Shown in pieces: positions 1 to 13,134 of a stretch of DNA of 64,000 nt. The notes below the pieces were generated by a model. That model worked only from the letters and a program-made list of their open reading frames with translations. It ran no database searches and was not told where the DNA came from. Made by a program: the position numbers and the translations under genes. The stretch is from an uncultured Rubrobacteraceae bacterium (lineage in GTDB: Bacteria; Actinomycetota; Rubrobacteria; Rubrobacterales; Rubrobacteraceae). Position 1 is the stretch's first letter, and every line of letters begins with the position of its first letter. Location of the stretch: the NCBI GenBank assembly GCA_902806065.1, contig CADCVE010000001.1, positions 248,001-312,000 of the forward strand, in the 5' to 3' direction.

Positions 1-2
1 AG

Positions 3-503
3 ATGCTCGGCGACGTGGCCGAGCCGGTCGAGGTGGCGTGGCACAACCGTAAGGTGCTGAACTTCAGCTTCAGCATCGGTCGCAAGGCCCAGAAGTGGGA
101 CCAGTGCGACGAGAACCTGAAGTCGTTTGCCCACATGGCGGTGGCCAGCTTGGTCGGCTGCAGTTTTTGCCTGGACCTCGGCTACTTCCAAGCCTATAAC
201 GAGGGACTAGACGTGACCAAGGCGCGTGAGGTACCCCGGTGGCGTGAGTCCGACGTCTTCACGCCGCTGGAGCGGGACGTCATGGAGTACGCCGAGGCGA
301 TGACGCAGACCCCGCCGACGGTCACTGACGAACTGTCGGCCAGGCTGCTGGAGGCGCTCGGCCCGGCCGCGCTGGTGGAGCTGACCATGTTCACTGCGCT
401 GGCGAACCTGTATACCCGCTCCAACACTGCGATTGGCATTGAGTCGCAGGAGTTTTCGGCGGCATGTGACTTGAAGCCGCTCGCCGTAGCTTCGACGACA
501 TGA
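3..503 (+). CDS. carboxymuconolactone decarboxylase (AhpD-like) family protein, probably 5'-truncated by window edge
   Basis: CxxC motif (GCSFCLDL) and AhpD/CMD-like helical protein; stop overlaps the downstream sigma factor start (ATGA). Confidence 0.8.
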   Translation: MLGDVAEPVEVAWHNRKVLNFSFSIGRKAQKWDQCDENLKSFAHMAVASLVGCSFCLDLGYFQAYNEGLDVTKAREVPRWRESDVFTPLERDVMEYAEAMTQTPPTVTDELSARLLEALGPAALVELTMFTALANLYTRSNTAIGIESQEFSAACDLKPLAVASTT

Positions 504-1369
504 CCGACGACCCGTTCGTCACCCATCGCAGCCTGCTCTTCACTGTCGCCTACGAGATGCTCGGCTCGGCCGCCGACGCTGAGGACGTGGTCCAGGAGAC
601 TTGGCTGCGGTGGGTCGACGTCGACCGCGCCGAGGTGCGGGCCCCGCGAGCCTACCTGGTGCGGATCGTCACCCGGCAGGCGCTCAACCGGCTGCGGACG
701 CTGGCGCGGCGGCGCGAGGAGTACGTCGGGGAGTGGCTGCCCGAGCCACTGCTCACCAGTCCCGACGTGGCCGAGGACGTCGAGTTCGCCGAGAGCGTCT
801 CGATCGCGATGCTAACCGTGCTGGAGACCCTCGCGCCTGCCGAACGGGCGGTCTTCGTCCTGCGCGAGGTCTTCGACCTGCCTTACGCCGACATCTCCGC
901 AGCGGTCGACAAGACGCCGGCAGCGGTCAGGCAGATCGCTCACCGGGCCCGGGAGCACGTGGCCGCGCGGCGGCCACGGATACAGGTCGATCGTGCCGAG
1001 CACCAGCAGGTGGTCGATCGGTTCCTGGCGGCGCTGCGGACCGGTGATCTCCAGGTGCTACTCGACGTGCTCGCACCCGACGTGGTGCTTGTCGCGGACG
1101 GTGGCGGCGAGGTGGCCGCTGCCCGGCGTCCGATGGTGGGCAGGGACCGGGTGGCGACCCTCCTCTCCCGCTTCAAGACGGTCGCGCCGGGTGCGGTGGT
1201 CGGCACTGTGTGGATGAACGGTGCGCCCGCCGGCCGAATTGACCTCGCTGGCGAGCTCAACACGGCGGTCAGCCTGGTGGTCACGGCCGGCCGGATCACC
1301 CGCATCTACGCGATCCGCAACCCGCACAAGCTCGCTCGACTGGACGAAGAGGTCACGCTCAGCCGCTAA
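500..1369 (+). CDS. ECF41-type RNA polymerase sigma factor with C-terminal SnoaL-like extension
   Basis: sigma70 regions 2 and 4; WLPEP linker motif, DGGG motif and NPHKL near the C-terminus, as in ECF41; adjacent CMD gene. Confidence 0.88.
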   Translation: MTDDPFVTHRSLLFTVAYEMLGSAADAEDVVQETWLRWVDVDRAEVRAPRAYLVRIVTRQALNRLRTLARRREEYVGEWLPEPLLTSPDVAEDVEFAESVSIAMLTVLETLAPAERAVFVLREVFDLPYADISAAVDKTPAAVRQIAHRAREHVAARRPRIQVDRAEHQQVVDRFLAALRTGDLQVLLDVLAPDVVLVADGGGEVAAARRPMVGRDRVATLLSRFKTVAPGAVVGTVWMNGAPAGRIDLAGELNTAVSLVVTAGRITRIYAIRNPHKLARLDEEVTLSR

Positions 1370-1491
1370 CTGCCGTCGCTGCCGACCCGGCCGGTCCGGG
1401 GGCGGCATACCCAGTGCCGGTCCGCTGTTGCACCACCGTCAACGGGTACGGTGCAGTGGCGAACTCCGGTGCGACGTGGTATATCGCGAAG

Positions 1492-1941
1492 GTGACCAGC
1501 AGACCCGCCGCAGCGCATCACCTGCGCAACCTCGCGCGACTGCGCCGCGTTCGCGACCGGATCGACCGGGAGTACGCGCAGCCGCTGGACGTCGAGGCAC
1601 TCGCCCGCAGCGCGCACATGTCGGCCGGGCACCTCAGCCGCCAATTCCGACTCGCCTATGGCGAGTCGCCGTACGCCTATCTGATGACGCGGCGCATCGA
1701 GCGCGCGATGGCGCTGCTGCGTCGTGGCGACCTCAGCGTCACCGAGATCTGCTTCGCGGTCGGCTGCTCGTCGATGGGCACCTTCAGCAGTCGCTTCACC
1801 GAACTCGTCGGTGTGCCGCCCAGCGTCTATCGGCGCCGGGCGGCGCGCTCCACGGCGGGGATGCCGTCCTGCGTGGCGAAACAAGTGACCAGACCGGTCA
1901 GGAATCGAGAAGTGCCGGCCCCCGAGCCGCACGTAGAATGA
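1492..1941 (+). CDS. AraC family transcriptional regulator (HTH domain)
   Basis: AraC HTH pattern (ARSAHMSAGHLSRQFRLAYGESPYAYLMTRRIERAMALLRRGDLSVTEICFAVGCSSMGTFSSRFTELVGVPPSVYRRR); GTG at 1492 in frame with the 1414 ORF. Confidence 0.85.
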   Translation: MTSRPAAAHHLRNLARLRRVRDRIDREYAQPLDVEALARSAHMSAGHLSRQFRLAYGESPYAYLMTRRIERAMALLRRGDLSVTEICFAVGCSSMGTFSSRFTELVGVPPSVYRRRAARSTAGMPSCVAKQVTRPVRNREVPAPEPHVE

Positions 1942-1979
1942 CTGCCATGGACACCATTCGAGAGAGGAGAATGATTGCC

Positions 1980-2404
1980 ATGGACATCAAGATTCACGCC
2001 AGCTTCCTCCCGCACGATGACCCGGACGCTGCCCTGGCCTTCTACCGTGACACCCTCGGCTTTGAGGTACGCAACGATGTCGGATATGGCGGGATGCGCT
2101 GGATCACGGTTGGCCCCGCCGATCAGCCCGGAACGTCCATCGTCCTGCATCCGCCGGCCGCAGACCCCGGCATCACCGACGACGAGCGTCGCACCATCGC
2201 CGAGATGATGGCCAAGGGCACCTACGCCGGCATCCTCCTGGCCACTGCCGACCTCGACGGGGCCTTCGAACGGGTGCAGGCCAGCGGAGCCGAGGTCGTC
2301 CAGGAGCCGACCGAGCAGCCGTACGGCGTTCGCGACTGCGCGTTCCGCGATCCCGCGGGCAACATGGTCCGCATCCAGGAGCTGCGCCGACAGAAGGAGG
2401 CACG

Positions 2405-2408
<4 letters not shown>
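1980..2408 (+). CDS. VOC (glyoxalase/bleomycin resistance-like) family protein
   Basis: VOC fold sequence (DPDAALAFYRDTLGFEV...DCAFRDPAGNMVRIQE); stop overlaps next ATG (ATGA). Confidence 0.85.
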
Positions 2409-4792
<2,384 letters not shown>

Positions 4793-4795
4793 CCA

Positions 4796-5119
4796 GTGGA
4801 CCACCTCGCCATCCCGGTGCCGATCAGGAGCGGTCGCGGCGCTTCTTCTACGAGGCGCACAGCCGCCGCGGCGGTACGACGACGGCTTTTTGATGCTCTA
4901 CGACGCGCACGGTTTGCGCTCGTGCTCGGGCCGGCGGACGAGCCGGTCGTGCGGCCGGACCGTGCGGCAGTGCTGACGCTGCGTGACCGGCTCGCGGCGG
5001 ACGGCGTCGAGCTCGTCGAGCAGTGGGACGAGCTGGGCTACGTGAGCGTCAAGTGCCGCGACCCGGACGGTTATGTCATCGAGGCGTTTTGGGAACCGGT
5101 TGGGCCTCGACGGACGTGA
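4796..5119 (+). pseudogene. VOC family protein remnant with internal frameshifts
   Basis: VDHLAIPV in one frame, DQERSRRFFYEAH in a second, RYDDGFLMLYDAHG in a third, then back to FALVLGPADEPV...CRDPDGYVIEAFWEP. Confidence 0.65.
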
Positions 5120-5167
5120 CTGGGTCCCGACGCTCGTCTGACTTAGTTCGAGCTGTGGTGCAGGCCG

Positions 5168-5779
5168 TTGCACTTCATGACGACGATGCTCGCCGCCGTC
5201 CTGGCCTGGAACCCGTTTCTAGTCTACAGCCCCGGTTTCCAGCTCTCCGTCGCCGCTGTCTTCGGCATCCTGCTTCTCAGAAGGCCGCTAAAAGCATTTC
5301 TCGAACGCACCCTGCTCAGGCCATTCAGGAAGCCGCCCGAGATACTCTCCAACCTCCTGGCCGTCTCTCTGGCCGCCCAGATCGCAACCGCTCCTATTAT
5401 CGCGACCAGCTTCGATGAGGTCTCCGTGATCGGGGTGCTCACCAACCTCATCGCCGTGCCGCTCTCCGGCCCGATCCTCACCCTGGGCCTCCTCGGAACG
5501 CTCGCGGGTAGTATCCTGGCGCCTCTGGGCTATCTCATAAACGCCTCCAACGGCTTTCTCACCACCATCCTTATCTGGGTCGCTGAAGCAGCCTCCGGCC
5601 TCCCATTCGCCGCCGTTGCCACACCGGGGGCGACACTGTTTCTAGTCGGGCTGTTCTACCTGGCCTGCGTACCCGCCGCCGTCGCCGAAGTTGCGCTGCC
5701 GGAGGAACGTTGGCCGAGGGTCGCGGGCTTGCTGGTGTTGTGGTCGGCGCTCTGGATTGTGCTGGTCGCCGTACTCTGA
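5168..5779 (+). pseudogene. comEC: ComEC C-terminal fragment (5' end missing)
   Basis: Multispanning ComEC-type sequence (NPFLVYSPGFQLSVAAVFGILLL...APIIATSFDEVSVIGVLTNLIAVPLSGPILTLG); upstream sequence is unrelated. Confidence 0.75.
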
Positions 5780-6023
5780 GAGCCTCTTGGAACCATAGTT
5801 CATCTAAAAAGATCCAATCTTCTTTACAGGCCCTACACCCTTTCTCCTCATTATCCGCATAGGTAGCGAACGCTGTTTGTATGGGTTCTAAGAGTTTCTG
5901 GGGAGGTCGTTGATGGGCGGTCACTATGGTAAGCACGAATCTAACCTAGAGGGTGGTCTAACGCTTATTGAAAAGTCCTGCAAATAGTGTCTCAAGTTTA
6001 GGTATAACTTGACCTCGACAGAC

Positions 6024-6040
6024 ATATGCATACCGCATAT
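6024..6040. repeat. perfect 6-bp-arm inverted repeat (ATATGC-ATACC-GCATAT)
   Basis: Read directly; upstream of the DUF6414-like ORF. Confidence 0.6.
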
Positions 6041-6081
6041 AGTAGTTGCAGAATGTTGGCGATCCCCAGAAAAGGACGCAC

Positions 6082-6969
6082 ATGGTAGCGCGGAGAAAAC
6101 CACCACCCCAGTTTCGATATCTTGACCCGGAGATAGCCGAAAGTTACCTCGCCAGCTTGACTGGTGGATTGCCCGAGGGGAGCAGCACTACAGAACGGGC
6201 AAACGTCATTGAACGTAGCGTGTACAACGTCGGTACGAGAGGCACTGGGGCTGGTGGGGGTAGGGATACGGAAGATGGATCGGAGAACCAGGAGAGGTAT
6301 CGCTACCCGCCCGAGGCGATATTCAGATTCTTATACGAAGAACTTGATGCGGAGACAGAAGAGGGGAAGATTTTAATTCCTCTAGATCGACTTGATGAGG
6401 AAAGCTGGCAAGAGTTAGAAGATAGGAACATAGTCGAGATCACGGGGACCATTAAAATCCCCGACCCACTCAAGGCTATGGAAGCAATGGGCACCTTCAA
6501 GACTTGGCTCCCGGCTTTAGAACGTATAGGAGAATTTGTCGGTGAGGGTGTGGAGGACATAGGCATAGGTCAGAAGGAAAGGTCAATGATAGACGGTCTG
6601 GGAGATATGAAAGAGGTAGCCGACTCTCAGGACGCAACTGTGATCGTTATTGAAGTGATAAACACTCCTCGGTATCGCTTCGTGGCGAAGCTCAAGAAGA
6701 GCCTCCTGCGCACCAGTCTAATGGACATTGAGGGCGAAGCGAAGATACTCGGTACAGTCCAGAGAAAACTCAAAAAAGGCGACCCTCCTATCGGTTTCGA
6801 ACAGCTTATTCCTGGATTAGACGCGCTGCGGGCGTTTCAGGGTAACCAGCAGCCACGTCCTAATCGTGCAGCCCGTCGAGGTCCGCAAAGAAGAAGAAAG
6901 CCACAGGGCAGCGACGGTAATTCGATCAGCTACCCAGCGGCTACCTTCACTCCTATTGGCATCTACTGA
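6082..6969 (+). CDS. uncharacterised protein resembling the DUF6414-type family
   Basis: N-terminus FRYLDPEIAESYLASLTGGLPEG resembles the YLD..xVESYLAQLxGG opening of DUF6414-type proteins; AT-richer than flanks; ATG 6082 preferred over 6046. Confidence 0.55.
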   Translation: MVARRKPPPQFRYLDPEIAESYLASLTGGLPEGSSTTERANVIERSVYNVGTRGTGAGGGRDTEDGSENQERYRYPPEAIFRFLYEELDAETEEGKILIPLDRLDEESWQELEDRNIVEITGTIKIPDPLKAMEAMGTFKTWLPALERIGEFVGEGVEDIGIGQKERSMIDGLGDMKEVADSQDATVIVIEVINTPRYRFVAKLKKSLLRTSLMDIEGEAKILGTVQRKLKKGDPPIGFEQLIPGLDALRAFQGNQQPRPNRAARRGPQRRRKPQGSDGNSISYPAATFTPIGIY

Positions 6970-7029
6970 TAGAAGGGGATATATTGCGGGCAGCAGAGGC
7001 ACCTGACGTCAACGGGTAGCCTATGGGCT

Positions 7030-7083
7030 GGCTTGTTAGTGTTGTGGTCCTCGCTCTGGATCGTGCTGGTCGCCGTACTTTGA
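7030..7083 (+). repeat. second copy of comEC 3' end (54 bp, 48/54 identical to 5726..5779)
   Basis: Encodes GLLVLWSSLWIVLVAVL* versus GLLVLWSALWIVLVAVL* in the upstream copy. Confidence 0.85.
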
Positions 7084-7098
7084 GTTTAGAATAAGCAC

Positions 7099-8016
7099 AT
7101 GGCAGTCTACCTCTTGCTCGGCGACGACGAAGAACGCAAGGCTCGCGGCGTAGAAAAGCTCCGCAAGGGCCGGGCGGCGCAAGCCTATGACGCGGCGGGC
7201 ACCAGCCCGGAGGCTATTGTCTCGGCCTGCAACTCTTACTCCCTCTTCGGGGAGGGAACGTTCATCCTCCTCAGGAACCTCGACGCCTGGAACGCCGCCC
7301 AGAAAGCCAGGATAGTGGACTATCTTCAGGACCCGTCTCCCGAGGCCGACCTCGTAATGCTCGGCGGAAAGCTCGGTGCACGCGAGAGGTTGCTCGCGGC
7401 AGTGAAGAGGGAGGGCGAGGTCCACGACTTCAAGCAGCCAACCGGCAGAGCACTCGCGAAATGGGCTGTTGGCTATGCCAAGAAGCAGGGGCTGGAGTTG
7501 CCCGAGGACGTGGCCGGGGAGCTCGCGGCGCGTTGCTCCGATGAGAAAATCCGGGTCTCGCGGGAGGTCGAGAAGCTCGCTTTATATGCTCACGGAGTTG
7601 CGACCCTCGATGACGTCGAGGCGCTGTGTCCGCCGGATATTCAGTCCAATATCTTCGCGTTCGTGGATTCGCTGGCCACCGGGGACCGGGGAAAGGCGCT
7701 GGAGCTTCTGGAGGCTTTGCTCGGTACTGGCGAGCCGGAGTTGCGGATCGCGTATATGATCCGTCGCCAGTTCCGCCTCCTCGCCCGTGCTCGTGCGCTC
7801 TTCGAGGAAGACACCCCTCGCCCCGAGGTTGCAAGTACGCTCAAGGTCCCGCCCTTCGTCGCCCGTAAGCTCGAAGAGCAGGCCGGGAAGATGAGTGAAG
7901 AAGACCTCGAACGGGCACTCGCCCTCGTCCTGGACCTGGAACGGGGGCTCAAGGGTGGGAGCGACCTCCGTGAAGAGTTACAGGTGGAACTGGTGGTGCT
8001 CGGCCTCTCTCGCTAG
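7099..8016 (+). CDS. holA: DNA polymerase III subunit delta
   Basis: HolA-like sequence; comEC-holA-rpsT-lepA synteny. Confidence 0.88.
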   Translation: MAVYLLLGDDEERKARGVEKLRKGRAAQAYDAAGTSPEAIVSACNSYSLFGEGTFILLRNLDAWNAAQKARIVDYLQDPSPEADLVMLGGKLGARERLLAAVKREGEVHDFKQPTGRALAKWAVGYAKKQGLELPEDVAGELAARCSDEKIRVSREVEKLALYAHGVATLDDVEALCPPDIQSNIFAFVDSLATGDRGKALELLEALLGTGEPELRIAYMIRRQFRLLARARALFEEDTPRPEVASTLKVPPFVARKLEEQAGKMSEEDLERALALVLDLERGLKGGSDLREELQVELVVLGLSR

Positions 8017-8696
8017 CCCTGGGGCGCCTCGACGCATAGAAGCTGGTTGCCGCCGATCTGAAACTCGTAAGGCACCCGCCTCGTCTCGGCCCGGTACCCG
8101 CGTGTCCGCAACTCGTTCAAGAGCGGTCGTAGGTGCGGAGACGGCTCCCCGTCATAGTTCAGTAGCGGGAAGATGCGCGCCTCGGAGGCTACCCGGCACA
8201 TCTCCTCGACGGCGGTGAGATGAAGGTCGGCTGATAGCTGCTCGGAGTAAGTGAATAAGAAATGGGAGCATAAGGCCAGGTCGAACGTGTCGTCGTCGAA
8301 ATCGAGCGCGGGTAAACCATCCGTGCGGTAGCGTTCTTGCCTAAATCCTTGCGAAAAATCGTCGAGGAAGCGTTGCATAGCCTCCATCCGCACCTCCCCC
8401 AGTCGAGCCGGAGACGCGATGTCCTTCCAGACGTAGCGGTCGCGGTTGGCCTCGGCACCCGCCAATACTATCTCTTGAGTCTCCTCGATGCGGGCCTGGA
8501 TCTCGCCAGCGGTTAACCGGTAGAGCGGATCGCAAGAGACAACACGGTATTCCTTTTGGCTTGCTTCGGCGTTGAAGCTTGCGGGGCCTGCGGCGCAATC
8601 AAGAATTCGCCCGGAGAGATCCAGGGGGGAGAGATCGAACATACTGACGTACTCCGCCTTGGAGCGTCCCCAGGGCATAACCTCGTTGAGATTCAA
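8013..8696 (-). CDS. SAM-dependent methyltransferase
   Basis: Motif I ILDCAAGPASF and class I methyltransferase layout. Confidence 0.7.
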   Translation of the reverse strand: MNLNEVMPWGRSKAEYVSMFDLSPLDLSGRILDCAAGPASFNAEASQKEYRVVSCDPLYRLTAGEIQARIEETQEIVLAGAEANRDRYVWKDIASPARLGEVRMEAMQRFLDDFSQGFRQERYRTDGLPALDFDDDTFDLALCSHFLFTYSEQLSADLHLTAVEEMCRVASEARIFPLLNYDGEPSPHLRPLLNELRTRGYRAETRRVPYEFQIGGNQLLCVEAPQG

Positions 8697-11988: not shown

Positions 11989-13134
11989 TTGGCGAGCAAG
12001 CGCGACTACTATGAGGTTCTGGGTCTCTCCCGCGAAGCCTCGGAGACGGAGATAAAGAAAGCCTACCGCAGGCTGGCCCGTGAACATCACCCCGACGCCA
12101 ACCCTGGAGACCACGGCGCAGAGGAACGCTTCAAGGAGCTAACCGAGGCCTACGAGGTCCTTTCAAGTCCCGAAGCACGTCGCGCCTACGACACCTACGG
12201 TCACCAGGTACCCCGAGCCGGAGCCGGGACTGCCGGACCCGGTGGCGACCCGTTCGGCGGCTTCCAGGACATCTTCGAGGCCTTCTTCGGCGACCAGATG
12301 GGAGAAAGTCCCTTCGGCTCCTTCTTCGGAGGCTCCGGTGGGCGTGCTCCGGCGCGTGGAGGCGATGCTGAAGTTGATGTAGAGCTTACCCTCAAGGAAG
12401 CTGCTTTAGAGACGGAACGTGAGATCAAGGTTCAGATCATCAAGGAATGCTCGGTCTGTGATGGTGTTGGGGGGACGCAGACCCGGCAGTGCGGGACGTG
12501 CGGTGGTGCGGGAGCGGTACGGATGGTGCGGAATAGTTTTCTCGGGCAGATGGTTAGCACGCAGGCCTGTGCGACTTGCGGAGGGCGAGGCAGGGTCATC
12601 GAGGTTGTCTGTGAGAACTGCCGGGGTGGCGGCAGGGTTTCGGAGGTCCAGACGCGGAGTATTCGAATACCCGCCGGTATCGAGGATGGCATGAGCATCC
12701 GGGTTCCGGGAGCGGGGCATGCCGGAGCGCGAGGCGCTTCGTCCGGCGACCTGTACGTAAGGGTGAAGGTTGAAGAAGACCTGGAACTCATGCGGGACGG
12801 AGATGACCTGATCCACCGGATGAGGATCAACTTTGTGGAGGCGGCACTGGGTGCTCAGGCTGAGGTGCCGACGTTGGAGGGAACGAGCACGGTGCGGGTA
12901 GAGCCGGGGACGCAGCCGGGGACCACAGTAGTTTTGAGGGGAGAAGGGATGCCCCGTTTGAGGCGTCGGGGGCGCGGTGACCTGAAGGTAGTCGTAGACG
13001 TAATGGTGCCCACCAGGATCACGGGTGAACAGCGGGAGTTGCTGGAGCGTTTCGAGGCGGCCAGTGGCGAGGAGACGTACAAGAACGGTGGCGGCGAATC
13101 CTTCTTCGACCGCCTCAGGAGCGTCTTCCGGTAA
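11989..13134 (+). CDS. dnaJ: chaperone protein DnaJ
   Basis: J domain (DYYEVLGLSREAS..HPD), four CxxCxGxG-type zinc repeats. Confidence 0.95.
   Translation: MASKRDYYEVLGLSREASETEIKKAYRRLAREHHPDANPGDHGAEERFKELTEAYEVLSSPEARRAYDTYGHQVPRAGAGTAGPGGDPFGGFQDIFEAFFGDQMGESPFGSFFGGSGGRAPARGGDAEVDVELTLKEAALETEREIKVQIIKECSVCDGVGGTQTRQCGTCGGAGAVRMVRNSFLGQMVSTQACATCGGRGRVIEVVCENCRGGGRVSEVQTRSIRIPAGIEDGMSIRVPGAGHAGARGASSGDLYVRVKVEEDLELMRDGDDLIHRMRINFVEAALGAQAEVPTLEGTSTVRVEPGTQPGTTVVLRGEGMPRLRRRGRGDLKVVVDVMVPTRITGEQRELLERFEAASGEETYKNGGGESFFDRLRSVFR

Follow-up and report, generated by a model that had tools for sequence, protein, structure and literature searches.

The window analysed here, a 64-kb stretch of DNA from an uncultured Rubrobacteraceae bacterium (genome G000, contig C1:248001-312000), holds the 3' end of comEC twice. 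The two copies flank a short one-gene cassette, and the second lies directly in front of holA, which encodes DNA polymerase III delta (Table 1). A repeat search at E <= 1e-4 returned two repeat pairs in the whole window: an internal repeat of uvrA type and the comEC-end pair (E 3e-13 by BLAST), a single direct pair of 58 nt with 88% identity. Within the G000 genome, DNA-level matches to comEC were found at just these two places (E 3.4e-13), and the repeat search showed no inverted repeats at the ends of the cassette. A previous reading of the letters, hereafter the sequence-only reading, had reported 48 identities in 54 positions with the peptide and stop preserved. Direct reading of 5726-5779 against 7030-7083 likewise gave 48/54, and both copies encode AGLLVLWS(A/S)LWIVLVAVL followed by a stop codon.

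Table 1. Features of the comEC-holA region, in window positions.
Feature	Position	Strand	Basis
Right-hand part of the high-GC island that splits comEC	1..5158	.	Positions of the comEC halves; island ORFs, Pfam
comEC C-terminal half, codon ~321 (PLHFMTT) to stop	5159..5779 (contig 253159-253776)	+	tblastn, Pfam
Repeat copy 1, comEC 3' end	5723..5780	+	Direct-repeat search; codon comparison with copy 2
AT-richer one-gene cassette between the comEC ends	5781..7026	+	GC; absent from empty-site relatives
TCGACA-17-TATAGT, promoter-like, ahead of the cassette gene	6015..6043	+	Consensus match only
DUF6414-family protein gene, 295 aa	6082..6969	+	PF19952 E 2e-22 (Pfam); ORF also open from TTG 6046
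Repeat copy 2, comEC 3' end, presumably the native one severed from the rest of comEC	7027..7084	+	Repeat search; lies right before the holA promoter, like the comEC end of empty-site genomes
TAGAAT, -10-like, 6 nt ahead of the holA ATG	7087..7092	+	TAnAAT conservation
holA (DNA polymerase III delta), intact	7099..8016	+	Pfam DNA_pol3_delta_C 2e-24

The cassette is ~1.25 kb long, and its description as an AT-rich segment with one ORF proved accurate: GC is 0.47-0.54 inside and 0.60-0.65 in the flanks, and the one credible ORF encodes a DUF6414-family protein, with the ATG at 6082 a likelier start than the TTG at 6046. This protein had zero matches in PADLOC, NCBIfam and PHROG, and its assignment to a known defence, phage or NCBI family was rejected for that reason; no plasmid or phage homologs were found. 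Few genomes of the phylum have a DUF6414 homolog (5 of 397, this one included), and none of the other DUF6414 genes in the family lies at the comEC-holA junction. The same cassette was absent from the other genomes searched, where the best match had 27% identity. The fold was predicted with low confidence (pLDDT 65), comparison of the predicted structure with the PDB gave no match below E 0.1, and a literature search found no paper on DUF6414. The cassette encodes no recombinase, DUF6414 being its sole ORF. No tyrosine recombinase was found near it, and the serine recombinases of the G000 genome are on other contigs.

The comEC gene of G000 is itself cut in two by an accessory island of ~15 kb, at the codons for PLHFMTT. 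The sequence-only reading had taken 5168-5779 for comEC, and comEC does end there, but this is the C-terminal half only. The N-terminal half (aa 6-325) is ~15 kb upstream, at contig 237206-238165, where comEC natively lies, after obgE, nadD, rsfS and comEA. The C-terminal half (aa 321-524) matches ComEC of the relative G007 at 81% by tblastn and the Pfam Competence family at 5e-30. The island starts ~9.8 kb to the left of the window, which holds its last third, with genes for a CMD-family protein, an ECF sigma factor, an AraC protein, a VOC protein, a UvrA-type ABC protein and a VOC fragment. Over its whole length it encodes HbpS-like, VOC, MerR and CMD proteins, methyltransferases, a two-component system, an ABC-2 transporter, the ECF sigma factor, AraC and the UvrA-type ABC protein, several of these genes having been named from sequence alone; none was recognised as coding for a recombinase. 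The UvrA-type ABC protein (window 2405-4792), at 795 aa, is shorter than the repair UvrA. In G007 the second comEC fragment starts at the same PLHFMTT codon, and in G031 PLHFMTT lies near the start of the comEC fragment. No more than ~15 bp separates the breaks in the three genomes, and this clustering hints at a site preference; common ancestry of the break in G000 and G007 was rejected, as the left flanks are unrelated.

Relatives with an empty site, and other cargo at the same position, had been proposed as the informative comparison for this junction, and both were found. In most of the family's genomes, holA follows the comEC stop at a distance of 9-32 bp, and the empty site in G002, G006, G009, G015, G035 and others has the form comEC stop-9 bp-holA. 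This is the ancestral arrangement, and relative to it the cassette of G000 is an insertion. The empty sites also support the earlier placement of the native comEC end at the holA-side copy. The junction is occupied, with differing cargo, in 11 of 35 genomes from several separate clades, where occupied means an insert of ~0.5 kb or more, a contig end within such an insert, or a lost link (G004). On a holA tree, this distribution requires at least five changes. All 36 holA-bearing genomes, empty and occupied alike, have the motif TAnAAT immediately before the start of holA. Since it is kept in every genome, the insertions that survive are probably those that spared the holA promoter, and holA would survive because its promoter sits at the very end of comEC.

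The cargo differs among the occupied genomes: G001 has an HTH protein, G013 a membrane protein and a zinc-ribbon protein, G026 a 213-aa protein, and both G034 and G061 a pyridine-nucleotide oxidoreductase. A coiled-coil-like gene beside holA is common to G007 and G008 clearly, and to G003 probably. AT content in the inserts of G000, G013 and G026 exceeds that of the flanking DNA. In G007 a full-length comEC is followed by the cargo and a displaced comEC end, and the duplicated length of comEC is 57 nt in G000, 615 nt in G007 and at least 618 nt in G013. G026 is a mirror image, in which a 45-nt holA head has been left behind comEC, before the cargo. Only G000 and G004 have a statistically clear comEC tail beside holA; the impression by eye that all occupied genomes carry one failed a shuffle test in the nine others, none of which had a significant tail. 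In G004 (L052, C407, 4173-6048), comEC appears to have been lost between rsfS and holA, with a comEC tail of ~38 nt remaining in front of holA.

The ancestry of the two comEC ends was examined by codon comparison. Between the G000 ends, 19 codons long, there are 6 synonymous differences and 1 nonsynonymous (P=0.0023 against neutral decay). The corresponding counts are 29 and 11 over 205 codons in G007 (P=6e-9) and 54 and 10 over 206 codons in G013 (P=1e-21). This pattern rejects neutral decay of an in-place duplicate in all three genomes. Because the differences are almost only synonymous, the second ends stem from other comEC lineages. As judged from their codons, the ends of each pair most likely diverged inside functional comEC genes and were brought together by transfer from one lineage to another. 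The sequence-only reading had called the G000 differences mostly synonymous, discounted a recent tandem copy, and proposed a segment that brought its own diverged comEC end; the ratio of 6 to 1 (P=0.002) and the different ancestry of the ends are in line with this reading.

We consider it about an even chance that one-sided, homology-facilitated illegitimate recombination (HFIR) of DNA from a related Rubrobacter made this arrangement and that the island split comEC separately. DNA in which the cargo gene already stood behind the donor's own comEC would have entered the cell, presumably by natural transformation. On the left side it would have undergone homologous recombination inside comEC, and on the right side it would have been joined without homology, a few dozen bases before the recipient's comEC stop. 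The product would be a comEC with the donor 3' end, the DUF6414 cassette, the final ~57 nt of comEC from the recipient and holA; in a separate event, the 15-kb island would have split comEC at PLHFMTT. Copy 1 would thus have come with the incoming DNA and copy 2, at holA, would be the recipient's native end, an assignment of donor and recipient that 57 nt of sequence do not themselves decide. As far as can be read from the letters, the left side is continuous with comEC, and on the right, at 7027, the comEC tail appears to be joined to DNA without homology. One-sided recombination of incoming linear DNA would lead to a homologous left side, an abrupt right side, variable native remnants and the mirror case of G026, and an illegitimate junction would be expected to give duplicated lengths that vary among genomes. 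No jump in identity was seen along comEC that would mark a crossover. The HFIR route does not account for so many donors with cargo behind comEC.

HFIR is known in transformable S. pneumoniae, A. baylyi and P. stutzeri, and its published products have insertions of ~1 kb on average, usually with 3-10 bp of microhomology (PMC3240628); a deletion typically accompanies the insertion. The G000 arrangement resembles these products in an insert of ~1 kb that needs no recombinase (here ~1.25 kb with DUF6414 only), and would do so in having one homologous and one non-homologous side. It would differ from them in that the events are natural, repeated at one locus across a bacterial family and anchored inside the DNA-uptake gene itself. 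The junction offers a natural, repeated record of horizontal gene gain whose mark, a second comEC end of separate ancestry, is still legible, and ties gene gain in an actinobacterial lineage to a locus of the DNA-uptake machinery.

A weaker rival, which we regard as unlikely, is site-specific integration by an element whose attachment site lies in the 3' end of comEC. Such an element would restore comEC with a replacement end and push the native end to holA, its recombinase acting in trans or having been lost. The layout of G007 is the classic outcome of integration at a gene 3' end, large serine recombinases occur in the genus (one of them fused to the comEA tail in G008), and comEC breaks recur at PLHFMTT. 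As in known elements of this kind, a direct repeat of the gene end lies on both sides of the cargo, the end is restored and relatives have empty sites; unlike them, the cassette has no integrase, and the length and side of the repeat vary among genomes. The gene-3'-end element suggested by the sequence-only reading fares poorly for the same reasons, the G026 repeat being a holA head on the holA side and not a comEC tail. The constant attachment sequence expected of such an element is not seen among the occupied sites, where the repeat is 57, 615 or at least 618 nt of comEC, or 45 nt of holA in G026. A serine integrase would not be expected to leave a 57-nt repeat. We also rejected an IS element or transposon, given the lack of a transposase and of terminal inverted repeats and the 57-nt, diverged repeats, and an integron cassette, given that a clear IntI match was found only in G005 and none in G000, and that the dispersed repeat R (see below) is absent from the DUF6414 cassette.

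Equally doubtful is that the occupied stretch arose in an old event in another strain and was then passed on whole by ordinary two-sided homologous recombination. The comEC and holA flanks offer the homology for this, and one cargo gene beside holA is shared by G007, G008 and probably G003, but the origin of the double comEC end is left unaccounted for, and no other genome searched has the DUF6414 cassette. A tandem copy of the comEC end made within this lineage, with a later insertion or partial deletion, gains something from the two G000 ends: by direct reading (48/54) they resemble each other slightly more than they resemble the nearest relative's end. A dead piece of 18 codons should, however, decay codon-blind, and the synonymous bias (P 0.002), repeated in two other genomes, makes this origin very improbable. 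A chimeric join in a 3.75-Mb genome assembled into 112 contigs, with an island of differing composition, is the least credible reading of all, as the join lies inside a 317-kb contig and independent assemblies show a like arrangement at the junction and the same comEC break point.

Mobile elements are known to disrupt the competence genes comK, comYC, comFA and comEC elsewhere (Croucher et al. 2016, PMC4774983), and disruption of comEC has been reported in Piscirickettsia (PMC12955456). The 15-kb island resembles such elements in cutting comEC, and in the genus comM is cut and comEA is joined to a serine recombinase. The DUF6414 cassette differs from them in sitting behind comEC, which it need not break, and the island in having no identified recombinase. 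With comEC split, comM cut and comEA joined to a serine recombinase, this genus lends itself to testing whether mobile DNA attacks competence genes.

A dispersed repeat of ~130 nt, R, occurs in the comEC island in one orientation (L084:3652-3781, 8166-8284 and 12806-12948; C1:238151-247447, to the left of the window), its first copy abutting the comEC break. The G000 genome has ~10 further copies elsewhere, and of 40 family genomes, 16 contain R or its reading, often as single-orientation arrays. The comM (YifB) gene is truncated at the same codon in two genomes, at GGHNLLM just before the Walker A motif (L193:664-1409, G007 C49; L131:1611-2315, minus strand, G000 C37). In G007 an R array begins exactly at the comM break, and in G000 R lies ~150 bp past it. 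Two R copies of G000 that lie away from com genes have at their left edge ~28-30 nt resembling comEC or comM (L125:2217-2250; L127, R at 5061-5189, minus strand); for the comEC-like piece, 2 of 1000 shuffles scored as high. R was rejected as a coding 3' end, as its differences are not concentrated at third positions, and as attC, as it has no such fold and no integron integrase is found in the R-array genomes. It is conceivable, if improbable, that an undescribed family of mobile Rubrobacter islands, in which accessory genes form same-orientation arrays with the ~130-nt repeat between them, inserts site-specifically in comEC (at PLHFMTT) and comM (just before the Walker A motif) and shuts off DNA uptake, with the comEC-holA cassettes as by-products of the traffic this brings to the locus. 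In G008 (L117:72-1802, C270), a large serine recombinase ORF is in frame with the last 21 codons of comEA, and this fusion lies directly upstream of an intact comEC.
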